Positions 5,066 to 60,860 of a DNA stretch of 64,000 bases are shown one piece after another. Both the position numbers and the translations under genes were made by a program. The DNA comes from Senegalia massiliensis (GTDB lineage: Bacteria > Bacillota > Clostridia > Tissierellales > SIT17). The notes beneath the pieces were generated by a model that had not been told where the DNA came from, ran no database searches, and was given only the letters and a program-made list of their open reading frames with translations. Where the stretch lies: assembly GCF_900626135.1 (NCBI RefSeq), contig NZ_LR130785.1, forward strand, positions 374,023-438,022, written 5' to 3'. Each line of letters opens with the position of its first letter. Within the stretch, counting starts at the first letter, position 1.

Positions 5066-6142
5066 GTGAAAAGACTGAAACTAACTTATATTTTTAAACT
5101 TTTAAAACCTACAAAGTATAAAGAAAATATACTAAAAGAAAATATCATAGAAACCACAAAGCATCGCAAAGAGATAGTAAGGAGATTGAAAGAAGGAAAG
5201 TTCAAACTTACAACAGCAGATTTTCCAGATTTCAAGCTTTCAAGTGCTGTTAAAAATCAAAATATATGGGATGTAAAACACTTATATAAAAATTTCAAAA
5301 AATCCAAATCTAAAAAAGAAAATATAGATTTTAAGCCTAATCAGCCACTGGGCTTCAGCAATCAGTGCTATAAGATTCAAGACAATTTCATAGCACTATC
5401 CTTATATGATAAAAAGTCCAAAAGGATATACTTTCCTATAGAAACTAAAAATAAAAGGTTTAAGGAATTTCAAGAAAATAGAGATAATCTTAAATTAGGA
5501 AAAATGAGTATATATAACAAAAAAGGAAACTGGTATGCAGCTTTATCAGTTACCGTAAAAGATGAAAAAACAGAAGCAACCAATAGTATGGGGATAGATA
5601 TAGGACTTAGACAACTAGCAGTAATCAGTATAATGAATGAAGAAGGTAAGGAAATAAATAGAAAATTTTTTAGTGGTAACGAATCAGGATATATACGAAG
5701 AAAATATAAAGCTTTGAGAAGGGAATTAGGTCAAGCAAAGAAACTCAAAAAAATAAAAGAAATATCAAATAAGGAGCAAAACTATATAAGAGATAAAAAC
5801 CATAAAATTAGTCACAAAATCGTAGAACTTGCTGTGCAAGGAGAAGTTGGGATGATTATTATGGAAAATCTAAAAAATATAAGAAATAGAGTAAAATCTA
5901 TAAAACAACCAGATAGAAATATAAATAGTTGGACTTTTTATCAACTTCAGAATTTCATAGAATACAAAGCAAAAAAAGAAGGAATAAAAGTGAAATATAT
6001 AAGTCCAAAATACACTTCACAGAAATGTTCAAAATGTGGACAAGTAGAAAAGAAAAACAGAAAAAAGAATTTATATTTATGTGAATGTGGAAATAGAATC
6101 CATTCTGATCTTAATGCAGCTAGGAATATAGCATCTGCTTAG
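5066..6142 (+). CDS. tnpB: TnpB, RNA-guided nuclease of an IS200/IS605-type element
   Basis: Cas12-ancestor nuclease that uses an omega-RNA made from the element's right end to cut DNA. About 358 residues. RuvC-I is D178 in MGIDIGL, RuvC-II is E267 in IIMENLK, the zinc ribbon has C321/C324 and C339/C341, and RuvC-III is D348 in HSDLNAARNIA. All three catalytic acids are present, so it is probably active. No tnpA transposase is near, so it is either a TnpB-only element or a remnant. The GTG at 5066 lies inside the ribosome site AGGAGGTGA; the real start is probably the in-frame CTG at 5075. It sits about 230 nt from the leader of a CRISPR array. Confidence 0.9.
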   Translation: MKRLKLTYIFKLLKPTKYKENILKENIIETTKHRKEIVRRLKEGKFKLTTADFPDFKLSSAVKNQNIWDVKHLYKNFKKSKSKKENIDFKPNQPLGFSNQCYKIQDNFIALSLYDKKSKRIYFPIETKNKRFKEFQENRDNLKLGKMSIYNKKGNWYAALSVTVKDEKTEATNSMGIDIGLRQLAVISIMNEEGKEINRKFFSGNESGYIRRKYKALRRELGQAKKLKKIKEISNKEQNYIRDKNHKISHKIVELAVQGEVGMIIMENLKNIRNRVKSIKQPDRNINSWTFYQLQNFIEYKAKKEGIKVKYISPKYTSQKCSKCGQVEKKNRKKNLYLCECGNRIHSDLNAARNIASA

Positions 6143-6547: not shown

Positions 6548-9408
6548 GTGGAACCTTAACAGAAGTTGTATTTAAATGACATGAAACAATTAGGAATCCA
6601 CAAAAGTCAGTATGTGGAACCTTAACAGAAGTTGTATTTAAATAGCTATATTCAATATTGTTCCCCTTATAGTTTTGTAGTGGAACCTTAACAGAAGTTG
6701 TATTTAAATAGTGATACGGTATGTAGAATGGTTGAAGCTTATAATGTGGAACCTTAACAGAAGTTGTATTTAAATATTAAATCATTTTGAAGCTCTTTAA
6801 CTTTTTGTCCTGTGGAACCTTAACAGAAGTTGTATTTAAATTAATCTCCAGTTTCAACTAATCCAGCTTTTCTGACGGTGGAACCTTAACAGAAGTTGTA
6901 TTTAAATAATTATCCTTGGATATTAAACTTAAAGAAGGCTAAAGTGGAACCTTAACAGAAGTTGTATTTAAATTAAATTGTGATGCTATAGCAAGTAGAA
7001 GTGGTTTCTGTGGAACCTTAACAGAAGTTGTATTTAAATTAATTACCTCTCTTTTTATATAGTCGGTATTCTAAGTGGAACCTTAACAGAAGTTGTATTT
7101 AAATTTAGTTATTTCAAGTTGATTTGCTATTTCATTAGTTGTGGAACCTTAACAGAAGTTGTATTTAAATAAGTCGATACAAGAGAAAACTATATGAAGA
7201 ATATTTGTGGAACCTTAACAGAAGTTGTATTTAAATTATTAACTTCATCTCCTTTTACTTTAGTTCTTTGTTGTGGAACCTTAACAGAAGTTGTATTTAA
7301 ATCTAGAAAGTTCAGCAGTTAATGAGTCTACTTTAACTGTGGAACCTTAACAGAAGTTGTATTTAAATAAGACGAACGTATAGGGACTAGTACTATTTAC
7401 AGGTGGAACCTTAACAGAAGTTGTATTTAAATCATCAAATGGAACCAGAAATAGCGGCTATAATGTATGTGGAACCTTAACAGAAGTTGTATTTAAATAA
7501 ATGAAAATAATACAAGTATAAGAGCTTCTGAAGAGTGGAACCTTAACAGAAGTTGTATTTAAATTTATCCCTTTATCCAAATCAAGTTCAAATTTTCTAT
7601 GTGGAACCTTAACAGAAGTTGTATTTAAATGAACATATGTTCGGAAGTCAATATAAAAATAAGGCTGTGGAACCTTAACAGAAGTTGTATTTAAATTCAA
7701 AACAATATGCAGTGTACTCATCTTCTATATTTGTGGAACCTTAACAGAAGTTGTATTTAAATATTTCTATTTCAGGATTAAACCTAATAGCATTCTCAGT
7801 GGAACCTTAACAGAAGTTGTATTTAAATGTGTTAAATTGATTATAAAACCATTCTCTATATGTAGTGGAACCTTAACAGAAGTTGTATTTAAATTAAGAT
7901 TAGAAATATGTATTCGGGCGAAATTAAACCGTGGAACCTTAACAGAAGTTGTATTTAAATTAAGGATCTCGTTTAAATAAATCTAAAATAAGTCGAGTGG
8001 AACCTTAACAGAAGTTGTATTTAAATAAGGAAGAAGATATAGAAGATGAAGAAGTTGAGTTGTGGAACCTTAACAGAAGTTGTATTTAAATGTATTAAAA
8101 AGTGTTGAAGGATTTAGTTTAATAGAAGTGGAACCTTAACAGAAGTTGTATTTAAATAATGAATGGGATGATAAAAGAGAAAGTTTCTTTAAAGTGGAAC
8201 CTTAACAGAAGTTGTATTTAAATATACTATCATTTAGTACTGCGTTACCCGACAATATAGTGGAACCTTAACAGAAGTTGTATTTAAATTTTGATTCACT
8301 CCTTTACTTATAAAATTCTTCTTGGTGGAACCTTAACAGAAGTTGTATTTAAATAGCTAATCCAGGACTAGGAACTATTAAGCGACTAGAGTGGAACCTT
8401 AACAGAAGTTGTATTTAAATATTTCGGTTTTTGTAAATTCAGCTTTTCCATTTAACGTGGAACCTTAACAGAAGTTGTATTTAAATGGATTACCAATAGT
8501 TAAATTATATTCTGGACTAACAGTGGAACCTTAACAGAAGTTGTATTTAAATGAATTTCAAGCTTTCTAGCCATTTCAGATTGACTATGTGGAACCTTAA
8601 CAGAAGTTGTATTTAAATATTTTATCTATAGGGTATAACCAGCCATCATCTAAGTGGAACCTTAACAGAAGTTGTATTTAAATAGATTGGTCTGGTAAAT
8701 ACTGTCCACGTGTCATATGTGGAACCTTAACAGAAGTTGTATTTAAATACTGTATTAGAGTGTGTATATCCTTTACCATGGTGCGTGGAACCTTAACAGA
8801 AGTTGTATTTAAATGGTTTCTCTGCTAATATTACTGTTTTCATTAATTAAGTGGAACCTTAACAGAAGTTGTATTTAAATAGCAATGGACAAGCTTAGAA
8901 AAGAAATATAGCTACGTGGGACCTTAACAGAAGTTGTATTTAAATGAAATAATGTCTAACTGTTCTGGTGGGAATCCTATTGTGGAACCTTAACAGAAGT
9001 TGTATTTAAATTTTAGGCCCGCCTAGAGATTCTAACAAATGGGTATTGTGGAACCTTAACAGAAGTTGTATTTAAATCAGAAACTATTAACGAGGTACCG
9101 GTAGAGTCTAGGTGTGGAACCTTAACAGAAGTTGTATTTAAATTAAAATCCCCTTCTAGTAATTGTGATATAATCTCTAGTGGAACCTTAACAGAAGTTG
9201 TATTTAAATTTGCAGCACCACATCTGCTACATCTAACTAAACCTACGTGGAACCTTAACAGAAGTTGTATTTAAATTTAAGTCAGACTCTTCAGGAGTAG
9301 TTCCATAATACGGTGGAACCTTAACAGAAGTTGTATTTAAATAAGAAAGATACATCTTGTTTCATCTTCTTTTCTTCCGTGGAACCTTAACAGAAGTTGT
9401 ATTTAAAT
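6548..9408 (+). CRISPR. CRISPR array 1, type I-B, 44 repeats and 43 spacers
   Basis: A 30-nt repeat that begins GTGGAACCTTAAC and ends GTATTTAAAT occurs 44 times with spacers of 34-37 nt, mostly 36. The orientation is + strand: the leader is at 6372-6547 and the 8-nt crRNA tag would be ATTTAAAT. Repeat 37 (8916-8945) has one change (GTGGGACC); all other copies read as identical by eye, including the last at 9379-9408. No spacer was noticed that matches DNA in this window. The uniform repeats and good leader promoter point to an active array. Confidence 0.98.
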
Positions 9409-9496: not shown

Positions 9497-9525
9497 TTGA
9501 CATTTAGAAGAAAATTATATATTAT
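9497..9525 (+). promoter_or_regulatory. Promoter of the orphan membrane protein
   Basis: A consensus TTGACA (9497-9502), 17 nt and TATTAT (9520-9525) lie 65 nt before the TTG start at 9590. The rest of 9409-9589 has a weak hairpin (AAGGTT 9444-9449 with AACCTT 9459-9464) that might end the array transcript, and AT-rich near-palindromes. Confidence 0.7.
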
Positions 9526-9545
9526 TTAATCAATAAATCATATCA

Positions 9546-9565
9546 ATTATATAATTAAGTATATT
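9546..9565 (+). repeat. 20-nt direct repeat shared with the cas6 upstream region, copy 1
   Basis: ATTATATAATTAAGTATATT is found exactly here and at 10302-10321. A related copy lacking one base lies at 9475-9492. The motif is partly palindromic and could be an operator shared by the membrane protein gene and the cas operon. Confidence 0.5.
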
Positions 9566-9589
9566 ACATTTAGAAGGGGAGAGAATTAA

Positions 9590-10123
9590 TTGCAGAAAAG
9601 AAAAAAATACTTTAAAAGAGTAATGAATATTAATGAAGTTTTATTTGGATGTTCTGTTTTATCAGTGGTTTTATACTTTTATTTTTATCCGATTTTTAAT
9701 TCTGAAAAGTATAATTTTATTATTAATATTGTTTTATTTGTAAATGGAATACTCTTAGTGATATTTAACACAAATTTTATTAATTTTAAAAATAACTTTA
9801 GAAAGATATCAATTTTTATAGTTATGATAATAGAAAGCTATACCATATATAAGATATTTTATTATTGTAATATTGGTATCATTATATATTTTAAAATATT
9901 ACTTACATTATCATTAATAGTATTCATCTATATTTTGTTTTTAACAATATTTAAATTTAGATTCATTTTAATATATATGTATCAAAATATAATATATAGT
10001 TCTTTTATAGAAAATGAAATATTATTTTTAGTATTAAAATTAATATCTATATATTTCTTTAAAACAATAATATTGTTAGAAGCACTTATATCTATAAGAG
10101 ACTTTCTTATAACTAACTTTTAG
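9590..10123 (+). CDS. Unrecognised membrane protein between CRISPR array and cas6
   Basis: I do not recognise this 177-residue protein. It has a basic N terminus (MQKRKKYFKRV) and about five hydrophobic segments, near residues 15-33, 43-60, 73-92, 95-120 and 143-160. It has almost no charged residues outside short loops. The start is TTG with the ribosome site AGGGGAG 8 nt upstream, and a consensus promoter precedes it. It lies between array 1 and cas6 on the same strand, separated from both, and its base composition is as AT-rich as the surroundings. A CRISPR-linked role (membrane effector, toxin or regulator) is only a guess from position; it could also be a passenger gene. Confidence 0.65.
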   Translation: MQKRKKYFKRVMNINEVLFGCSVLSVVLYFYFYPIFNSEKYNFIINIVLFVNGILLVIFNTNFINFKNNFRKISIFIVMIIESYTIYKIFYYCNIGIIIYFKILLTLSLIVFIYILFLTIFKFRFILIYMYQNIIYSSFIENEILFLVLKLISIYFFKTIILLEALISIRDFLITNF

Positions 10124-10142
10124 CTAACTATAAAATAATTAT

Positions 10143-10171
10143 TAACTTTTCTCTTTATTTTATGTTATACT
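10143..10171 (+). promoter_or_regulatory. Promoter of the crRNA-like RNA and probably of the cas operon
   Basis: TTAACT (10143-10148), 17 nt and TATACT (10166-10171), with TG one base before the -10 (extended -10). Transcription would start near 10178, at the left arm of a 12-nt inverted repeat. No better promoter was seen before cas6, so read-through into cas6 is likely. Confidence 0.55.
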
Positions 10172-10177
10172 GTAACT

Positions 10178-10295
10178 ATAATCCTAAAATATATATCAAC
10201 TACTAGTTATGTATTTAAAAATTATTTAATTTAGTATTTTAAAAGTTGAACCGTTACATTTATGTAGTTAATATTAGATTTTAGGATTAATTATA
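10178..10295 (+). ncRNA. Candidate crRNA-like regulatory RNA with degenerate CRISPR repeats
   Basis: Positions 10245-10274 start GTTGAACC, continue with TTACA and end TGTAGTTAATAT. Aligned to the array repeat with small gaps, about 20 of 30 positions agree. A partial second copy of the repeat's 3' half (AGTTATGTATTTAAAA) is at 10205-10220, 24 nt before it. The 12 nt ATTTTAGGATTA (10278-10289) after the degenerate repeat are the exact reverse complement of TAATCCTAAAAT at 10179-10190, at the predicted transcript start. This may be an RNA stem, or a guide that targets its own promoter. It resembles the CreR/CreA RNAs known next to cas operons. Function is inferred. Confidence 0.5.
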
Positions 10296-10301
10296 TATTC
10301 T

Positions 10302-10321
10302 ATTATATAATTAAGTATATT
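10302..10321 (+). repeat. 20-nt direct repeat, copy 2, upstream of cas6
   Basis: Exact second copy of the sequence at 9546-9565. The remainder of the 320-nt gap to cas6 holds only very AT-rich DNA and a hairpin (AGATAATT 10394-10401 with AATTATCT 10418-10425) just before the cas6 ribosome site. Confidence 0.5.
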
Positions 10322-10443
10322 TAAAATAATAATTAATAATAAAATTATATTATTTTAAGAAAAAAGAAGGAAAACAAGCTTTTATATAGAATTAGATAAT
10401 TATAGTATTTATTCTAAAATTATCTATAAAAGGTGGTGATAAG

Positions 10444-11157: not shown

Positions 11158-13810
<2,653 letters not shown>

Positions 13811-13812
13811 AA

Positions 13813-14550
13813 ATGGAAGCGTTAAAATTTAATATTAAAGGCTCTACTGCCTTCTTTAAAAAACCAGATGTAAATGCCTATGCATATTTTAGCTATGGAA
13901 ATATACCTAAAATTGCACTCTTAGGAATATTAGGTTCAATCTTAGGATTAGGTGGATATAATCAGCAAAAAGAAGATGAAATTTACCCCGAATTTTATGA
14001 AAAACTTAAAGATTTAAAAGTATCTATTATTCCTAATACAAAAAAAGCTTACTTTGCCAAGAAAATACAAGTATTTAATAATAGTGTAGGATATGCAAGT
14101 AAAGAACAAGGTGGAAACTTAATAGTAAGAGAACAGTGGTTAGAAAACGTAAATTGGACGATATATATCTTAAATGATGGAAATATAGATAAAAACTTAT
14201 ACAATAAATTAAATGATTATTTACTGAATAATAAAACACATTTTATACCCTATCTAGGGAAAAATGATCATCCTGCTAATATAATGAATGTAGCATATAT
14301 AAAGTTAGAAGAGGTTAAAAGTTACGATAAAATAGATTCTTTATTTCCTTATAAGGATGTAAAACTAGGAAAAGGTACAAGTGATGGTAAGCTAGAATTT
14401 TTATATAAAGAATACCTCCCAGTTAGTTTAAATAAAGAACTTAATTTCTATGAATTAGAAGAATTATCTTTTACAAATTATAGGATAAAAGAAATAGATC
14501 ATAAAGATAGAGTATATTCTGACAAAGAAAAAAATTTATATTTTATTTAA
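13813..14550 (+). CDS. cas5: Cas5, crRNA tag-binding subunit
   Basis: RAMP subunit that caps the 5' tag of the crRNA in Cascade. The 245-residue protein begins EALKFNIKGSTAFFKKPDVN and has the glycine-rich run GILGSILGLGGY near residues 36-47, as in type I-B Cas5. It follows cas7 with a 2-nt gap, so the two are translationally coupled. It is followed by a hairpin that separates the Cascade genes from cas3. Confidence 0.92.
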   Translation: MEALKFNIKGSTAFFKKPDVNAYAYFSYGNIPKIALLGILGSILGLGGYNQQKEDEIYPEFYEKLKDLKVSIIPNTKKAYFAKKIQVFNNSVGYASKEQGGNLIVREQWLENVNWTIYILNDGNIDKNLYNKLNDYLLNNKTHFIPYLGKNDHPANIMNVAYIKLEEVKSYDKIDSLFPYKDVKLGKGTSDGKLEFLYKEYLPVSLNKELNFYELEELSFTNYRIKEIDHKDRVYSDKEKNLYFI

Positions 14551-14552
14551 AT

Positions 14553-14576
14553 AGAGCTTGGTTTGAACCAAGCTCT
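14553..14576 (+). terminator. Perfect hairpin between cas5 and cas3
   Basis: AGAGCTTGGTT and AACCAAGCTCT form an 11-bp stem with almost no loop. No T run follows (TATGATAG), so it may be an attenuator, an RNA-processing or stability element rather than a full terminator. It lies 26 nt before the cas3 start. Confidence 0.55.
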
Positions 14577-14601
14577 TATGATAGGGGGCTAGACTATACT
14601 C

Positions 14602-17169
14602 ATGTACTTAATCAATATAAGTAATTATGTAAAAAATAAAGATAGATATCTTGCTCATAAGAAAAAGGGGAAGAAAAATGAAACACTAAAAGAGCATCTA
14701 GATAAAACTATAGAATATTACAATAAACTATGTGATAAGAAGCAATTAGATACTATAATTAAAAATACTATTGATGAAATAAGATTAGAGGAAAGAAAGT
14801 TAAATCATGAAGAACAAGAATTTATTTATAAATTATTTATAAATTCTATATATCTTCATGACTTAGGAAAAATTAATGTAGTATTTCAAAAAAAGAAAAT
14901 GGAAAAAAGTATTAGTGGTGTAAAATATAGAAGACTTAATAATAGTGAGCATAGTTTAATATCTAGTTTACTATATATAGCAATTTTTAATGAAGAAATA
15001 AAGTTAATAAAAGATTATGATTTTAAAAGATTAGCGGAACACATCATGTATATAAATAGTTATAATATGTCCAGACACCATGGATACTTAAAAGATTTAG
15101 AGGGATATAAAAATAAGTTGGAAAATTTAAAAAATAAAATAAAGGAGCATCCTGATTATATAATAGATTATATAGGACCAGATATAAGTGATTTAGATTT
15201 TAAAGAATCTAGTTTTTTAGGATATAAAAACTATAGTGAAAACGATTTTTACGGGAGATATGAAATTTATATATTAGAAAAACTACTTTATTCTATTATA
15301 GTTAATTGTGATTTCTATGCAACTTATGATTATATGAACAGTGAACCTATAGATGAATTTGGAGAGTTAAGAGACTTAAATGAGCTAAAAGGAGCTTACT
15401 ACAATACCAATATATATAAAGGAATATATAAATATAAAAAATATAAAATGAACTTATTAGAAGAGAATCCTTTCGGAGAAAATTCTATAAACACATTAAG
15501 AAGCGAGATGTTTTTAGAAGCAGAAGAGAATTTATTAAAAAACATAAATAAAAACATCTTTTATATGGAAGCTCCTACAGGTAGTGGTAAAACTAATACT
15601 TCTATAAATTTAGCTTTAAAATTAATTAATCAAAATAAAACTTTAAAAAAGATATTTTATATCTTTCCATTTAACACATTGATAGAACAAACAGAGAAAA
15701 GCATAAGAGAGATCTTCACTAAAAAGGATTTTAAAGATTTTATAAAAATAATTAATTCAATCACACCTATAATCGAAGAGAGTGAGTATAAAGGACAAGA
15801 GGTATATAGTTCTATTGATTATGATAAAAAATTATTAGATATACAAATGCTACATTATCCCTTAATCATGACAAGTCACGTAAATTTTTTTAGATATCTA
15901 TTTAGTGGTTCTAGAGAAGCAAATTTAGCTTTATTACATCTTTCTAATAGTGTAGTAATAATTGATGAAATCCAAAGTTATAAAAACCAAATTTGGAAAG
16001 AAATAATTGAATGCTTTTCTAAAATATTTAAATTATTAAATATGAAAGTTATTATAATGTCCGCTACTCTACCAAGGCTAGATAAATTAGTAAGTGAAAG
16101 AGAAGATATATTCACAGAACTTATAATAGACAAAGAAAAATATTATAAGAGTCCATTTTTTAAAGATAGAGTTAAATTAGATTTTAGTCTACTCAAAAAT
16201 TCTGAATTTAATGATCCAGAAAAAGGGAAAGAAGAGTTGATAAAAAAAATACAAGAAGTATGGAAAGAAAAGAAAAAAAGAATATTAATAGAATTTATAA
16301 AGAAAGAAGATGCTAGAACTTTTTATAACTTAGCTAAAAAAGAATTTCCAAATAAAAGAGTAGTAGAAATAACAGGAGATGACAATAGAATATATAGAAA
16401 AGAAATATTGGATGAGTTAAAGAGTAAAGATGATAATGAAGAATTTATATTGAAGGATATTCTGATAGTAGCAACCCAGGTAATTGAAGCAGGTGTAGAT
16501 ATAGATGTGGATATAGGATTTAAAGATATATCTACAATAGATTCCGAAGAACAGTTTTTAGGAAGAATTAATAGATCTTGTAAACGTGAGGGACTTGCCT
16601 TCTTCTTTAACTTAACAGAAGCTAATAAAATCTATAGAGGCGATTTAAGATTAAATAAAGATTTAAGATATGAAAGGTATCAAAAGATATTGATAGAAAA
16701 GGAATTCAGTGAATTTTATGAAGAATGCTTAAAAAATGTAGAGAATAAAAAAGAAGAATTAAATGAAAATAATATAAATAATTTTTATTCAAAAATGAAA
16801 TATTTAGATTTTCAAGAGATAGATAAACATATGAGTTTAATTGAAGATAATAAATACCAAGTTTATCTTCCTTATACTATAAAATATATAGAAGAGAATG
16901 AGGAAAAGGAAATAGATGGAGAAAAAGTTTGGAGAGAATTTAAGGAACTTTTAGAAAACAAAAAACTAAAGTATGCAGAAAAAAGGATTAAATTATCTTC
17001 TGTACAAGCTAAAATGGATTATTTTATATTTAATTTAGGTGAAAAACCTCAGAAGTACGAAGAGAATATTGGAAATTTATTCTATATTCAAAACGAAGAA
17101 GATTATATAATAGATGGAAAATTTGATAGAAAAAAGTATCTAAATGAGAGTGAGGATATCTTTATATGA
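14602..17169 (+). CDS. cas3: Cas3, HD nuclease-helicase
   Basis: Degrades target DNA after Cascade binding. The 855-residue protein has an N-terminal HD nuclease domain (H86 D87 in YLHDLGK). An SF2 helicase follows: Walker A APTGSGKT near 324-332, DEIQ box near 455, SAT motif near 487, and motif VI FLGRINRS near 650. All core motifs are intact. A GGGGG ribosome site sits about 14 nt upstream. Its 3' end overlaps cas4 by 4 nt. The HD-first fused form is normal for I-B. Confidence 0.95.
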   Translation: MYLINISNYVKNKDRYLAHKKKGKKNETLKEHLDKTIEYYNKLCDKKQLDTIIKNTIDEIRLEERKLNHEEQEFIYKLFINSIYLHDLGKINVVFQKKKMEKSISGVKYRRLNNSEHSLISSLLYIAIFNEEIKLIKDYDFKRLAEHIMYINSYNMSRHHGYLKDLEGYKNKLENLKNKIKEHPDYIIDYIGPDISDLDFKESSFLGYKNYSENDFYGRYEIYILEKLLYSIIVNCDFYATYDYMNSEPIDEFGELRDLNELKGAYYNTNIYKGIYKYKKYKMNLLEENPFGENSINTLRSEMFLEAEENLLKNINKNIFYMEAPTGSGKTNTSINLALKLINQNKTLKKIFYIFPFNTLIEQTEKSIREIFTKKDFKDFIKIINSITPIIEESEYKGQEVYSSIDYDKKLLDIQMLHYPLIMTSHVNFFRYLFSGSREANLALLHLSNSVVIIDEIQSYKNQIWKEIIECFSKIFKLLNMKVIIMSATLPRLDKLVSEREDIFTELIIDKEKYYKSPFFKDRVKLDFSLLKNSEFNDPEKGKEELIKKIQEVWKEKKKRILIEFIKKEDARTFYNLAKKEFPNKRVVEITGDDNRIYRKEILDELKSKDDNEEFILKDILIVATQVIEAGVDIDVDIGFKDISTIDSEEQFLGRINRSCKREGLAFFFNLTEANKIYRGDLRLNKDLRYERYQKILIEKEFSEFYEECLKNVENKKEELNENNINNFYSKMKYLDFQEIDKHMSLIEDNKYQVYLPYTIKYIEENEEKEIDGEKVWREFKELLENKKLKYAEKRIKLSSVQAKMDYFIFNLGEKPQKYEENIGNLFYIQNEEDYIIDGKFDRKKYLNESEDIFI

Positions 17170-17660
17170 AAATTACAGGAACTATGATAAATTATTATTT
17201 TCACTGTAAAAGACAATGTTGGCTATTTTCTAATCGTATAAATCTAGAGGATAATAGTGAAGATGTAAAGATAGGTAAAATACTTCATATTTTAAAAAGT
17301 GAAGAAAATAAAACTACAGAGCTTTCTATTGAAAATATAAAGATAGATAGATTAACTGATGATTATTTAGTTGAAATTAAAAAGTCAGATGCAGATATAA
17401 ATGCTGTAAAATGGCAAGTTTTATTATATTTAAAAACACTTAAAGAAAAAGGCATAGATAAAAAAGGTATGATTGAAATTATTGAAAAGAAAAAGCAGGA
17501 TAAAAAGATTCATTATGTAGAATTAGATGATGAAAGGTTAAAAGAATTAGAAGAAATTTTAGAAAATATAAATATTTTAATTAATATCAATAGCCCTCCA
17601 GATCCAATTAATGAACCAAAGTGTAAGAACTGTGCTTATTATGAATATTGCTATATATAA
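17166..17660 (+). CDS. cas4: Cas4, Fe-S nuclease for spacer acquisition
   Basis: PD-(D/E)XK nuclease that trims prespacers and sets PAM choice and orientation with Cas1-Cas2. 164 residues. Cluster cysteines are C14 (with C18 nearby) at the N terminus and C153, C156, C162 at the C terminus. The catalytic strand shows LVEIKKSD. The ATG overlaps the cas3 stop (ATGA), so the two are coupled. Confidence 0.93.
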   Translation: MKITGTMINYYFHCKRQCWLFSNRINLEDNSEDVKIGKILHILKSEENKTTELSIENIKIDRLTDDYLVEIKKSDADINAVKWQVLLYLKTLKEKGIDKKGMIEIIEKKKQDKKIHYVELDDERLKELEEILENINILININSPPDPINEPKCKNCAYYEYCYI

Positions 17661-17666
17661 GAAAGG

Positions 17667-18677
17667 GTGAGAATAATTAAAGGTCATACAAGATATTTAA
17701 TGTCTAGAGGTGAACTAAAACGAAAAGATAATTCCATAGTATTTAAAAATGAAAAGGGTAATTTCTATATTCCTATTGAAGGTATAAGAGAATTATATTG
17801 TATGAATGATATGACAGTAACTACAAAACTTTTAGATTTTATATCAAAAGCAGGGGTAGTCATTCACTTTTTTAATTATTATGGACATTATAGTGGAACA
17901 TATTATCCAAAGAAACAACTAATTAGTGGAAGTTTAAAAATAAAACAAGCTACTACATACTTAGATAGACGGCTTATTATAGCTAAAAAAATAGTTGAAG
18001 GCATTGCAGTAAATATAGCTGAAACGTTATACCACTATTATAAACATGGAAAAAAAGATATTAAACCTTTGATAGATTGGTTGAGAAAAGATATACCTAA
18101 TATGTTAAGCAAAGAAATAAACATAAAACAAATATTATTTATAGAAGGACAAATATGGCAGAATTTTTATGCTACCTTTAAAAACATATTAAGAGAAGAA
18201 TTTGTATTTAATAAAAGAGTTAAAAGACCACCAGATAATCCATTAAATGCTATGATTTCATTTGGAAATTCTCTCTTATACACTAAAACCATTTCTCAAA
18301 TATACAATACCCATCTAGATCAGTCTATAAGTTTTTTACACGAACCAATGGAAGGAAGATTTTCTTTAAGTTTAGATATAGCAGAGGTATTTAAACCTAT
18401 AATAGTATTTAAAACAATTTTTGACTTAGTAAATAATAGAAAAATTAGAGTAGATAAGCACTTTGAAAAGAAAGTTAATTATTGTATTTTAAATGAAAAA
18501 GGAAGAAAAATATTCATACAAGAATTTGAAAATAGGATAAATAGTGTATTTTTGAATAAGAGATTAAATAGAAAAACTACGTATTTGACAGCAATAAAAT
18601 TAGATGTATATAAACTTATAAAATATATAGTAGAAGATAAAGAGTTTGTACCCTTCAATCTAAAGGAGAGTTGTTAA
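17667..18677 (+). CDS. cas1: Cas1, CRISPR integrase
   Basis: Integrase subunit that inserts new spacers at the leader end. The 336-residue protein has the metal triad E160, H225 (in FLHEPMEG) and E240 (in LSLDIAE), and the N-terminal GELKRKDNSI pattern. The nominal GTG at 17667 lies inside the ribosome site AGAAAGGGTGA; the true start may be the in-frame ATA at 17673 or ATT at 17676, correctly spaced. It follows cas4 by 6 nt and touches cas2. Confidence 0.95.
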   Translation: MRIIKGHTRYLMSRGELKRKDNSIVFKNEKGNFYIPIEGIRELYCMNDMTVTTKLLDFISKAGVVIHFFNYYGHYSGTYYPKKQLISGSLKIKQATTYLDRRLIIAKKIVEGIAVNIAETLYHYYKHGKKDIKPLIDWLRKDIPNMLSKEINIKQILFIEGQIWQNFYATFKNILREEFVFNKRVKRPPDNPLNAMISFGNSLLYTKTISQIYNTHLDQSISFLHEPMEGRFSLSLDIAEVFKPIIVFKTIFDLVNNRKIRVDKHFEKKVNYCILNEKGRKIFIQEFENRINSVFLNKRLNRKTTYLTAIKLDVYKLIKYIVEDKEFVPFNLKESC

Positions 18678-18965
18678 ATGGGTAAAATAAAGAACTATAA
18701 TTACGCTTTTGTACTATATGATGTAAATGAAAAAAGAGTACATAAGGTATTCAAGGTATGTAAAAAATATCTCAATCATTATCAAAAGTCTATTTTTAGA
18801 GGAGATATTACTACATCTAAATTAATTGCTTTAAAAAATGAATTATATCAAATTATAGATCCATCAGAAGATTTTATTTCTATAATTAAATTAGTAAATA
18901 AATCAAGTTTTGGAGAGGAAATATTGGGAACACCTCAGAAAGATGTAGACAGTATGTTTATATAA
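18678..18965 (+). CDS. cas2: Cas2, integrase structural subunit
   Basis: Forms the Cas1-Cas2 complex for spacer integration. 95 residues with a ferredoxin-like fold and D15 in AFVLYDVNEKR. The ATG directly follows the cas1 stop, with AAGGAGAG upstream inside cas1. Leader 2 begins two bases after its stop codon, so the adaptation genes and array 2 are directly joined. Confidence 0.94.
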   Translation: MGKIKNYNYAFVLYDVNEKRVHKVFKVCKKYLNHYQKSIFRGDITTSKLIALKNELYQIIDPSEDFISIIKLVNKSSFGEEILGTPQKDVDSMFI

Positions 18966-19141: not shown

Positions 19142-22100
19142 GTGGAATCTTAACAAAAGTTGTATTTAAATATATCAGCGTTTCTGTTAAATGCAATTGC
19201 AGGTTGTGGAATCTTAACAAAAGTTGTATTTAAATATGCTCTTATATCGTTGTTTAATGTTCCATCAAATGGTGGAATCTTAACAAAAGTTGTATTTAAA
19301 TGGAGTATTCCACTTTTGTTCTCCTGAATAAATACTAGTGGAATCTTAACAAAAGTTGTATTTAAATACTTTACAGGTTTGCCGGACGGGAAAGCCGAGA
19401 ATGTGGAATCTTAACAAAAGTTGTATTTAAATCTCCATTCCCTGCTACAGTTTGCTCTATAACGCCAGGTGGAATCTTAACAAAAGTTGTATTTAAATCT
19501 TTGAAACGCTCTATTCATATTACCTCCTTAATCGTGGAATCTTAACAAAAGTTGTATTTAAATATGCAACAGAGGAAGATTTGGACAAGCATAATCAGAG
19601 TGGAATCTTAACAAAAGTTGTATTTAAATATTGCAGGCGATAGCATAGGTTGTGCTTTAGTTCCTGGGGTGGAATCTTAACAAAAGTTGTATTTAAATCT
19701 TATAAAGACAGAGGTATAAGAAGTAAAGTATTTAGTGTGGAATCTTAACAAAAGTTGTATTTAAATATTGCACCTAATGCACTTATAATTGTGCCGACTA
19801 CTACTGTGGAATCTTAACAAAAGTTGTATTTAAATTTAGATTCAAAACGTTTGCTACAATCAATGTTAATACGTGGAATCTTAACAAAAGTTGTATTTAA
19901 ATTATACACTATCTTGTAATGTATTAGCTACCTTTCTTAGTGGAATCTTAACAAAAGTTGTATTTAAATTTTCTTCCTATCCCCTTTCTCATTTACGCAT
20001 ACTGGGTGGAATCTTAACAAAAGTTGTATTTAAATCAATAACTAGAGGAAATAAAACAGAGACAATGTATATGTGGAATCTTAACAAAAGTTGTATTTAA
20101 ATATAAAAAGTGGGATAGTTAAAATATTAAAAGCTATAGGTGGAATCTTAACAAAAGTTGTATTTAAATTTATAGTGGTAGAGAAGAAAACAAGCAAAAA
20201 ACTGAGTGGAATCTTAACAAAAGTTGTATTTAAATGACACAAATGGACTAGCTATAAGCTTTAAGAACATAGTGGAATCTTAACAAAAGTTGTATTTAAA
20301 TAGTTTTCCCTGATTTTCAAAGTCTAAAATTGTAACAGTGGAATCTTAACAAAAGTTGTATTTAAATTTTATTATATATATGAATAATCCCTATTCCTAT
20401 AATGTGGAATCTTAACAAAAGTTGTATTTAAATGGAACAGCAAGATATTTTAATATATTTTTATTAAGTGTGGAATCTTAACAAAAGTTGTATTTAAATA
20501 ACTCACCGTTTGCAACCATTTCATCAAGTCTATTTGTGGAATCTTAACAAAAGTTGTATTTAAATAATTTAAAAGTGTATAACAATATAAACATATAATT
20601 TGTGGAATCTTAACAAAAGTTGTATTTAAATAATAAAACAATCAGAAGGTGTAGTAATTGATTTTGCGTGGAATCTTAACAAAAGTTGTATTTAAATAGT
20701 AAACCACGTAATCCACCTTTTAGTTTATCGAATGTGGAATCTTAACAAAAGTTGTATTTAAATTTTCTACAGCCTTTATTAGTTCTTCTTCCAGCTTTTG
20801 TGGAATCTTAACAAAAGTTGTATTTAAATAAAAGAATATATTTCTTTTGAACAACAATTAGTTGGGTGGAATCTTAACAAAAGTTGTATTTAAATAAAAG
20901 AACCTAGGGCCTTAATAGCCCCAGGTTTTAAGTGGAATCTTAACAAAAGTTATATTTAAATTTTCTACTATTCCTCCTCATATTGCGTACATACTATGTG
21001 GAATCTTAACAAAAGTTGTATTTAAATAGGAGGACTAGACTTCGATTTAAACTTAATAGAACTGTGGAATCTTAACAAAAGTTGTATTTAAATACCCTTG
21101 TTAAACACTTTTTATTGTTTGGTAATACGTGGAATCTTAACAAAAGTTGTATTTAAATAGAGTGCATCTTCCATAGATTTTAATCTTTCTTCATGTGGAA
21201 TCTTAACAAAAGTTGTATTTAAATTTACTTGAATTACTTGTAGAACTGTTTGAAATATTAGTGGAATCTTAACAAAAGTTGTATTTAAATATTTGTTTCA
21301 GTTTTCATGATGTACCCAAATTCATTGCGTGGAATCTTAACAAAAGTTGTATTTAAATAGTAGAAAATGCACTCCATAAATCTGCAATAGGTTAGTGGAA
21401 TCTTAACAAAAGTTGTATTTAAATTAAATATAACGTAGAACAAAAAGACTTAAAAATAGAAGTGGAATCTTAACAAAAGTTGTATTTAAATATATTACAT
21501 CTGCCTCTATTCTAGCTAATCCACTAGGTGGAATCTTAACAAAAGTTGTATTTAAATTCAAAAGAGTAAAGAGATGGATTTGCTTTATCCCACGTGGAAT
21601 CTTAACAAAAGTTGTATTTAAATTCATTATATTTAACATATTATCATAATTTTTGTAATGTGGAATCTTAACAAAAGTTGTATTTAAATCTATTAGTAAT
21701 GGACTTAAGAAAGTATAAAGGTGATATGTGGAATCTTAACAAAAGTTGTATTTAAATTATTATCCCTGAAATAGAAATAACATATAGCACAGAGTGGAAT
21801 CTTAACAAAAGTTGTATTTAAATGTTTTATTTGTAGTACTGTTTACACTTCTAACATAGTGGAATCTTAACAAAAGTTGTATTTAAATGTAGTTACTCTT
21901 TCCTTAAGTGATTCTACTCTTTTCAGTGGAATCTTAACAAAAGTTGTATTTAAATTTTAATCACCTGCCTATACTCTATACCCTCTATTTGTGGAATCTT
22001 AACAAAAGTTGTATTTAAATTCTAATTCACCTACCTTTATGTTAAAGAGGGGAACTGTGGAATCTTAACAAAAGTTGTATTTAAATTGTATGGCAAGGCC

Positions 22101-22350
22101 GTGGGGGCAAATTCAATACAATGTGGAACCTTAACAAAAGTTGTATTTAAATTATTGTAAGTCTTGTAAATCCCAACCTTCAGTTCTTGTGGAACCTTAA
22201 CAAAAGTTGTATTTAAATTTATTTAAAACAGGCCACAGTATAGAAGATATTAGGTGGAACCTTAACAAAAGTTGTATTTAAATAAATAAAGGCAATTATT
22301 ATTTATATTTATGTTTAGCGGTGGAATCGTAACAGAAGTTATATTTAAAT
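19142..22350 (+). CRISPR. CRISPR array 2, type I-B, 49 repeats and 48 spacers
   Basis: A 30-nt repeat beginning GTGGAATCTTAACAAAAG and ending GTATTTAAAT occurs 49 times with spacers of 34-39 nt. It differs from the array 1 repeat at positions 7 (T for C) and 15 (A for G). Repeat 28 (20932) has one further change. Repeats 46-48 (22123, 22189, 22254) carry C at position 7 as in array 1. The terminal repeat (22321-22350) is degenerate: GTGGAATCG start, G at 15 and TTATATTTAAAT end. Same + orientation as array 1. From 22351 to 22516 nothing clear was seen except AT-rich DNA. Confidence 0.98.
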
Positions 22351-58748: not shown

Positions 58749-60860
58749 ATAAATATACGTAGATTTACTATAATATTTTTAGTATTATTATTGTTAGTAA
58801 TATTTTTTATTACATTTGGTTACCAAAAATATATGAGAGATCAAGTATCTAAAAGTACCGATAATATAGATGGTTTGAAAAGAATAACTAAAATAAAAGA
58901 TAATAATATTTATATATATGAAGAAGACAAATGGAAATATTTTGACATGAGAGGGGTTAGATTATCTTCATTTGCACCAGATTACAGTAGAAATAAAGGA
59001 AATATAGATAAAAAACAAGCTATGAGATGGTTAAATCAAATTGATAGTTTGAATGCTAATACTATTATTTTGTCAGATATAATGAGTCCTGCTGTTTATA
59101 GTGCTATATATGATTATAATTTAAACAAAGAAAAACCTATATATGTAATTCAAGAAATTGAGGTAGATGAAAGGAAGGTATTAGAGCATTACAACGCTTT
59201 TACTCTAGAGATAAAAAATACTTTGAAAGAAGATGTGAAAAATGCCATAGATATAATAAATGGAAATGGTTTTATATTTGGAGGAGATAGATATCCTTCA
59301 GGGATATACTTGAAAGATATATCTAAATATACTTTAGGGTATGTAGTGGGCTTAGGAACTAATCCTGAGATGGTAGCTCTTACTAATATTAAAAATGAAA
59401 ATACGGGTACATTCTCTGGAGAGTACTATAGTACTGATGATAAATCTGAACCTTTTGAACACTTTATAGCAGAAATAATGGATTTTAGTGTATCTTATGA
59501 AATTGAAAAATATAATAAATTAAGTCTTATTTCATATATTACAAGCATAGAAACAGACCCATTAAAGCATAAAAATCAAACTGAATTACTTGAAAATGCA
59601 AATATAGATATTAAAAATATAGTAGAAAATAAATATTCTAATATTTTTGTAAGTTATAGTGCATATCCAAATTCAAATAGTTATATAAGCTATAATTATG
59701 AATCTAAAGAGTCATTTCTAAGGTATTTAAAAGATATAAAAAACTATTATAATAAACCTTTAATAATAACAGATATAGGGATACCATCTTCGAGAGGAAT
59801 GTCAAGAATAGATGTAAATGAAGGTTTTAATAGAGGAAACTTTTCAGAGAGTGAAGCAGGCGAACAATTAGTCAAACTATTAAGCTATATAAATGACGCA
59901 AAAATTCAAGGAGTATGTATAAATTCTTGGCAAGATAATTGGAATAGAAGTACAGAATTTAACTTGATAGAAGATTATATTTTAGAAAGTAATTCAACAT
60001 ATTGGTTTGATGCTCAATCTAGTGATGAAAGTTTTGGGTTGTTAAAATTTGAAGCGAATAATAATAAACATATAGATGGAAATATTGACGAATGGAAAGA
60101 TACAGATTACTTAATTAATCAAAAAAAATTAAAAATAAAAGTAGATTCTGATCCTTCATATTTATATTTGATGGTAGAAAAAGATGAATGGACATTAACA
60201 AGAGATGAAATGTATATAGGATTAGATATAAATCCTGCTATGGGCTCTAAAGTATGGAAAGATAAATCAGTTGAGTTTAAAAATAATGTTGATTTTATAG
60301 TAGAATTAGATGGATATAATGATTCTAGAATATTAGTAAATGAAAGATATAATTTATTTAATTATTTATATAAATATTATTCATATTTAGTGGACAAGCA
60401 GACTTATACACCTAATAAGAATAGTGATATATTCTCTCCGATATATATTATGAATAGAAAGCAGTTTTATTTAAAAGATGATAATAAAGTGTTAGAACCA
60501 CTTTATTATGAAACAGGAAAATTACTTTATGGAAATAATAATCCAGAATATAATAAAAGTAACTCTTTATCAGATTTTAATAATAATGATAACACTTTAG
60601 AATTAAGAATTCCTTGGACATTAATAAATGTTATAAATCCATTAGAAAAAAATATAAGAGGAGATTTTTATAAAAATGGAATAGAAGATACAGTTAAAAT
60701 TGAAAATATACAAATTTCAGCTTTTGCTAGGAATGATACTGATAAAATAATTACTGATAGTAAAGAGTATTCTATTCCTAGATTTAGAAAGGTAAAATAT
60801 AATGAGAAATTAAAAGAATCTTATTATATACTAAAAAAATATTGGGAAAATAAGAGGTGA
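58749..60860 (+). CDS. Membrane-anchored glycosidase-like protein of the CotH cluster
   Basis: About 703 residues. TM anchor near residues 5-25. A TIM-barrel-like region (about 60-400) has RGVRLSSFAP near the start, DIGIPSSRG near 325-345 and CINSWQDNWNRS near 380, like a catalytic barrel with unclear residues. A CBM9-like sandwich domain follows near 420-540 (IDGNIDEWKDTDYL). The ribosome site GAGGTGAT at 58739-58745 points to a non-standard ATA start at 58749; the first ordinary start is TTG 58791, which cuts the anchor. No enzyme class is assigned. Confidence 0.75.
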   Translation: MNIRRFTIIFLVLLLLVIFFITFGYQKYMRDQVSKSTDNIDGLKRITKIKDNNIYIYEEDKWKYFDMRGVRLSSFAPDYSRNKGNIDKKQAMRWLNQIDSLNANTIILSDIMSPAVYSAIYDYNLNKEKPIYVIQEIEVDERKVLEHYNAFTLEIKNTLKEDVKNAIDIINGNGFIFGGDRYPSGIYLKDISKYTLGYVVGLGTNPEMVALTNIKNENTGTFSGEYYSTDDKSEPFEHFIAEIMDFSVSYEIEKYNKLSLISYITSIETDPLKHKNQTELLENANIDIKNIVENKYSNIFVSYSAYPNSNSYISYNYESKESFLRYLKDIKNYYNKPLIITDIGIPSSRGMSRIDVNEGFNRGNFSESEAGEQLVKLLSYINDAKIQGVCINSWQDNWNRSTEFNLIEDYILESNSTYWFDAQSSDESFGLLKFEANNNKHIDGNIDEWKDTDYLINQKKLKIKVDSDPSYLYLMVEKDEWTLTRDEMYIGLDINPAMGSKVWKDKSVEFKNNVDFIVELDGYNDSRILVNERYNLFNYLYKYYSYLVDKQTYTPNKNSDIFSPIYIMNRKQFYLKDDNKVLEPLYYETGKLLYGNNNPEYNKSNSLSDFNNNDNTLELRIPWTLINVINPLEKNIRGDFYKNGIEDTVKIENIQISAFARNDTDKIITDSKEYSIPRFRKVKYNEKLKESYYILKKYWENKR

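Follow-up and report, generated by a model that had tools for sequence, protein, structure and literature searches.

A mini-CRISPR unit of the CreR type was detected at 10191-10274, directly before the type I-B cas operon of the analysed 64-kb stretch of DNA (the window), and Cascade loaded with its guide is likely to act through two sites as a repressor of the cas operon and of ORF177, an open reading frame next to the unit. This reading is built on the anatomy of the unit, the matches between guide and targets, their conservation in relatives and the genome-wide uniqueness of the two sites. Since the guide matches sites before the cas genes and before ORF177 at just those bases that are read by Cascade, the defence system probably keeps itself off by this guide, and perhaps a neighbouring gene as well.

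Locus and anatomy of the mini-CRISPR unit

The type I-B core gene set in the window is complete and every gene is open, with cas6 through cas2 ending at 18965. Two CRISPR arrays flank the cas operon, and ORF177 and the mini-CRISPR stretch sit between array 1 and cas6. The features are as follows:

6548-9408, + strand: CRISPR array 1, 43 exact copies of GTGGAACCTTAACAGAAGTTGTATTTAAAT
9497-9525, + strand: promoter-like TTGACA-17-TATTAT before ORF177, 11/12 match to the consensus
9543-9569, + strand: target 1, consisting of the PAM TCA (9543-9545) and the protospacer (9546-9569), ATTATATAATTAAGTATATTACAT
9590-10123, + strand: ORF177, 177-aa predicted membrane protein with a TTG start after AGAAGGGGAG, 16% G+C
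10142-10171, + strand: promoter-like sequence TTAACT-18-TATACT, -10 extended, a candidate for driving the mini-CRISPR RNA
10179-10190, + strand: left arm, TAATCCTAAAAT, of the perfect 12-bp inverted repeat around the unit
10191-10220, + strand: psiR1, first repeat, strongly degenerate except for its final 12 nt, ATGTATTTAAAA (10209-10220)
10213-10220, + strand: predicted 5′ handle in psiR1, ATTTAAAA
10221-10244, + strand: psiS, the 24-nt guide, ATTATTTAATTTAGTATTTTAAAA
10245-10274, + strand: psiR2, second repeat, GTTGAACCGTTACATTTATGTAGTTAATAT, 5′ part conserved, final 8 nt degenerate
10278-10289, + strand: right arm of the inverted repeat, ATTTTAGGATTA
10299-10325, + strand: target 2, consisting of the PAM TCT (10299-10301) and the protospacer (10302-10325), ATTATATAATTAAGTATATTTAAA
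10444-11139, + strand: cas6 (Cas6b), first gene of the type I-B cas operon
11158-18965, + strand: remainder of the operon, cas8b, cas7, cas5, cas3, cas4, cas1 and cas2
19142-22283, + strand: CRISPR array 2, 47 exact copies of repeat variants, mostly GTGGAATCTTAACAAAAGTTGTATTTAAAT

The repeat variants differ by array (GTGGAACC..ACAGAAG versus GTGGAATC..ACAAAAG for the arrays at 6548-9408 and 19142-22283), and an identical TATTTTACAGTA precedes both of them. A TnpB-family protein (IS200/IS605 type) is encoded at 5066-6142, immediately 5′ of array 1.

In the initial annotation, 10245-10274 had been taken as a degenerate unit of the array repeat and a partial 3′ half-repeat had been placed 24 nt upstream of it, and our analysis agrees on both points. 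psiR2 can be aligned to GTGGAACCTTAACAGAAGTTGTATTTAAAT with one gap per side. In a search with a profile of the second repeats of relatives, from which the window was excluded, position 10245 is the top match outside the arrays in the window, with an E-value of 0.36, so that the repeat similarity by itself is weak evidence. The end of psiR1, ATGTATTTAAAA, matches the Cas6 site and the 5′ handle of the array repeat. As this 3′ part of a repeat ends exactly 24 nt before 10245-10274, the unit is read as psiR1-guide-psiR2, a repeat-spacer-repeat arrangement with degenerate repeats outside the arrays and near the cas operon, as is characteristic of CreR. The assignment of the 24-nt gap as the predicted guide goes beyond the initial annotation, as do the near-perfect target before cas6 and the second predicted target before ORF177. 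In the repeats of CreTA, psiR1 retains the Cas5 handle whereas psiR2 has lost it (PMC9458426), and the same pattern is seen in the window unit.

No further copies of psiR2 were found in the genome at up to three mismatches. Another ectopic repeat, indicated at 60187 by a gapless profile, lies within a coding gene and scores under 10245 once gaps are introduced. psiR2 retains GTTGAACC where the arrays have GTGGAA.

A promoter with ideal spacing had also been proposed for 10143-10171. A plausible site is indeed present at 10142-10171; its spacing, however, is 18 and not 17, and promoter-like sites in the AT-rich stretch around it occur as often as in shuffled sequences (7 versus 7.1), thus not above chance for this composition. 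From its sequence, the site is a plausible promoter of the mini-CRISPR RNA.

Two targets of one guide

For the comparison with the cas side, the guide was set mechanically as the bases following the ATGTATT[T/G]AAAN handle and all sites with a TC PAM in the 600 nt upstream of cas6 were scanned. At target 2, the guide matches all 15 of the Cascade-pairing positions within 1-17, with mismatches at positions 6, 12, 18 and 21. Positions 6, 12 and 18 of a crRNA are the bases that are flipped out by Cascade and stay unpaired. In 20,000 shuffles of 10275-10443, a 15/15 match was obtained 0 times at a TC PAM and three times with any PAM. As in CreR, a guide seed therefore matches a PAM-flanked site upstream of the cas operon beyond chance, with TCT as PAM versus the TCA of relatives. 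A clear promoter could not be assigned from sequence near target 2 or in the AT-rich stretch before cas6. By eye, a weak candidate for a cas promoter is visible inside psiR2 (TTGAAC, 10246-10251, and TAATAT, 10269-10274).

Target 1 was initially spotted by eye, and the later genome scan is unbiased. Here, too, the guide matches 15 of 15 positions (1-5, 7-11 and 13-17), and mismatches within 1-18 occur only at 6, 12 and 18. The target starts 17 nt past the -10 of TTGACA-17-TATTAT and lies just 5′ of the ribosome-binding site and the TTG start of ORF177; like the guides of CreTA and CrePA, the guide is thus aimed at the promoter region of the gene adjoining the unit. When the genome (2.87 Mb) was scanned for TCNATTATNTAATTNAGTAT at up to one mismatch, exactly two sites were obtained, the cas site and 9543-9562, both of them less than 1 kb from the guide. 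The two targets are identical across positions 1-20 and unrelated outside.

ORF177 carries several strongly hydrophobic stretches and is open over 177 codons, compared to a longest open stretch of 125 in 5,000 shuffles. No family match was obtained in Pfam, NCBIfam, PADLOC and PHROGs, looser Pfam and PHROGs scans included, and no homologues were found in phages, plasmids, viral contigs, 248 genomes of the order and 391 genomes of the class. Neither KilA-N nor any other domain was found in ORF177. The single-sequence structure model is all-helical with a pTM of 0.37 and therefore too poor for a fold search.

Guide-target pairs in related loci

For the comparison with related loci, Cas6 relatives were taken from the order, the class, one clostridial family and the phylum, together with named contigs found via Cas1. 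At 54 of the 127 clostridial type I-B cas6 loci, psiR1, guide and psiR2 follow one another, the PAM is of the TC type and 13 or more of the 15 positions are paired; 15/15 pairing is reached at 27 of the 127 cas6 upstream regions. In cross-locus controls (3,696 pairs) a score of 15 was never obtained, 14 was obtained 13 times and 13 was obtained 31 times; by these rates, one to two of the 54 loci may be due to chance. An earlier, smaller control run gave a single 15 in 4,160 pairs, formed by L028 and L030, whose guides are almost identical. Under this search, no unit was detected upstream of cas6 at over half of the relatives' loci, and hence it is not essential.

Units in relatives mostly read towards cas6, some of them away from it, and their guides are 20 to 45 nt long, with most at 22-30 nt. 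As in CreTA, the handle is kept by psiR1 and the 5′ part by psiR2. The view of the initial annotation that the unit is a CreR/CreA-like regulator of a clostridial type I-B operon, for which a missing conservation in relatives would have been the counterevidence, gains support from the 54 loci, where the repeat-guide layout is kept, and from the clustering of mismatches at positions 6, 12 and 18.

After removal of duplicates and doubtful cases 48 loci were left, including the window. The criteria for choosing the pairs were positions 1-5, 7-11 and 13-17 plus the TC, and did not include positions 6, 12 and 18 or the third PAM base, so the low mismatch at the paired positions (0-4% within 1-15 and about 18% at 16-17) is partly given by construction. 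At positions 6, 12 and 18, mismatches amount to 69, 65 and 62%, which is the expectation for independent columns. A mismatch above chance at position 6, hinted at by the first ~28 loci, vanished at 48 loci (0.69 observed, 0.67 expected). The unselected third PAM base is A in 45 of the 48 loci, the remaining PAMs being TCG (two loci) and TCT (one locus). The latter is the cas site of the window, and its unique PAM is a point against our main reading; TATCT was reported as a functional PAM in C. pasteurianum (Clostridium pasteurianum) (PMC4860712).

Some further observations were made on the 48 pairs and on single loci. At the flipped-out positions 6, 12 and 18, the guide carries T in 60% versus 46% at paired positions and the target carries A in 58% versus 41%, in a set of loci that are not fully independent. 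Reversed units whose target, with a TCA PAM, is on the opposite strand near the cas6 start were seen at L067, L070, L072, L077, L139 and, by eye, L079; the match of L070 is interrupted by a one-base shift, and the handle of L079 is too degenerate for automated detection. At L020, the target lies directly upstream of psiR1, so that unit and operon may share one promoter. At L064 and L071, a small ORF that is helix-turn-helix-like by eye lies between the guide target and cas6, and the target may consequently control this ORF together with the operon.

The target is nearer to cas6 than the guide in 44 of the 48 loci, and a second guide site with at least 14 of 15 matches was found at none of the other 53 loci, within a searched flank of 0.8-3.7 kb at many of them. 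Both observations would fit a plain CreR, for which the cas-side target alone matters and the match on the side of ORF177 is fortuitous or a relict copy. However, the site before ORF177 combines the usual TCA PAM of the relatives with 15/15 pairing and a near-consensus promoter, just one other such site exists in 2.87 Mb, and the identity with target 2 ends at position 20. We therefore regard the plain CreR as unlikely, while leaving it a small share of the probability.

A different layout is found at three loci of one clostridial family (L059, L114 and L130), where the only strong target of the cas6-adjacent guide is upstream of the unit. This 15/15 target is on the other strand, ~280-310 nt before cas6, and is followed by a good ribosome-binding site and an ORF of ~15-36 codons. 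Judged by sequence, these layouts look like CreTA modules, and ORF177 is the putative occupant of the same niche as their small ORFs. Together with the TCA PAM on the side of ORF177 and with the orphan, hydrophobic and very AT-rich character of this ORF, they speak for a guide acting mainly as CreA-type antitoxin, with ORF177 as a Cascade-repressed toxin in the logic of CreTA/CrePA and a cas-side site that is secondary or inactive. On the other hand, relatives usually have their target on the cas side, the match before cas6 is just as exact, and neither KilA-N nor another domain is found in ORF177, in contrast to the CreP toxin, which carries KilA-N (review PMC12737573). A guide serving mainly ORF177 is thus improbable in our view.

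Degenerate repeats and the lack of a recognisable array leader could also point to a dead, functionless remnant of an old array, but a remnant would not retain matches confined to the Cascade-pairing positions together with a conserved PAM, as observed for the window unit and for dozens of relatives, and we give this explanation hardly any weight.

The RNA fold of the unit, including the enclosing stem, is better than that of its shuffles (z -3.0), and by this model a transcript from ~10178 could enclose the guide in a hairpin formed by the 12-bp stem and the pairing of psiR1 with psiR2. The least probable explanation, a cis-acting structured leader in which the 12-bp inverted repeat and the inner pairing form an attenuator and the repeat likeness is incidental, takes up this fold, yet relatives keep guide and target without the stem. 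The stem may add to the guide function rather than replace it. As a conserved feature it had to be rejected, since it is specific for the window and the longest stem in relatives has 10 bp, with mostly 7 bp or less. In many relatives, a hairpin after psiR2 is found in place of the enclosing stem. A second guide after psiR2 (from 10275 onward) aimed at 10179-10190 was likewise rejected: it has no TC-type PAM, its seed is mismatched, and by eye the match is read as the inverted repeat.

Proposed mechanism and relation to known systems

For the CreR-type unit with two targets, we infer transcription, processing, binding, repression and the role of ORF177 as follows. The transcript of the unit would be processed by Cas6 within both repeats, psiR1 and psiR2, to a crRNA-like RNA of ~53 nt that starts with the 8-nt 5′ handle, continues with the 24-nt guide and ends in a 3′ part derived from psiR2. 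Loaded with this RNA, Cascade would recognise the TC-type PAM, and guide positions 1-5, 7-11 and 13-17 would pair with the sites at 10302-10325 and 9546-9569. Pairing as short as this would lead to a block of transcription without cleavage by Cas3. The cas operon would be autorepressed, and ORF177 would be kept off as long as an intact Cascade is available that other crRNAs do not occupy. If Cascade were lost or inhibited, for instance through an anti-CRISPR, both the cas operon and ORF177 would go up. By this reading, ORF177 may be either a toxin or an accessory protein.

In characterised CreA guides (two, haloarchaeal), positions 1-5 and 7-11 form the seed and positions 6 and 12 are free to vary (PMC8501985). 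In another type I-B system, guides of up to 26 nt repress instead of cleave (PMC10551041), and the guide found here, with 24 nt, falls under this switch from cleavage to repression. Only tentatively, the proposal can be extended to one RNA with two outputs, the cas operon (as in CreR) and ORF177 as a new membrane-protein toxin (CrePA-like) which would be released along with more Cas when Cascade is inhibited or lost; ORF177 might then be the founding member of a family of membrane effectors under CRISPR repression that has not been described before.

CreR is known as a Cas-regulating crRNA-like RNA of type I-B, I-E and V-A systems (reviews PMC12737573, PMC13131331). The window unit is similar to it as a mini-CRISPR by the cas operon with a crRNA-like guide, partial complementarity upstream of the cas genes and a PAM at the target. 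It differs from CreR in that a non-cas gene is preceded by a second target which its guide matches equally well, and also by the TCT PAM at the cas site and the enclosing 12-bp inverted repeat. With CreTA (CreA antitoxin RNA and CreT toxin RNA; PMC8501985, PMC9458426), it shares two degenerate repeats with the handle in psiR1 and the 5′ part in psiR2, a seed at 1-5 and 7-11 with mismatches at 6 and 12, and the targeting of the promoter region of the adjoining gene. This gene, however, is a putative membrane-protein ORF of 177 codons and not a minimal RNA toxin, and the guide also targets the cas side. In CrePA (the CRISPR-repressed protein toxin CreP with CreA; PMC12737573), as in the window, a protein gene lies beside a type I system under predicted repression by Cascade, but ORF177 is without KilA-N or any family match.

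A guide common to cas genes and a neighbouring gene was not described in the literature searched, which comprised CreR-type and related work other than the original CreR paper. A CreR-type unit is of an already known kind, and the second target before ORF177 is new. On the basis of these matches, a single guide appears to repress the cas operon and an adjacent gene, merging CreR with a layout like that of CreTA/CrePA.

So far, CreR and CreTA/CrePA have been described as separate devices. If the reading is true, one guide with two targets would place self-regulation and a gene with a possible suicide or effector role under the same sensor of Cascade integrity. In addition, the 48 pairs provide a search signature, namely the PAM TCA, pairing at positions 1-5, 7-11 and 13-17 and free drift at positions 6, 12 and 18, which makes it possible to look elsewhere for such units and for what they target outside cas, the CreT-like small ORFs in three clostridial relatives among them.
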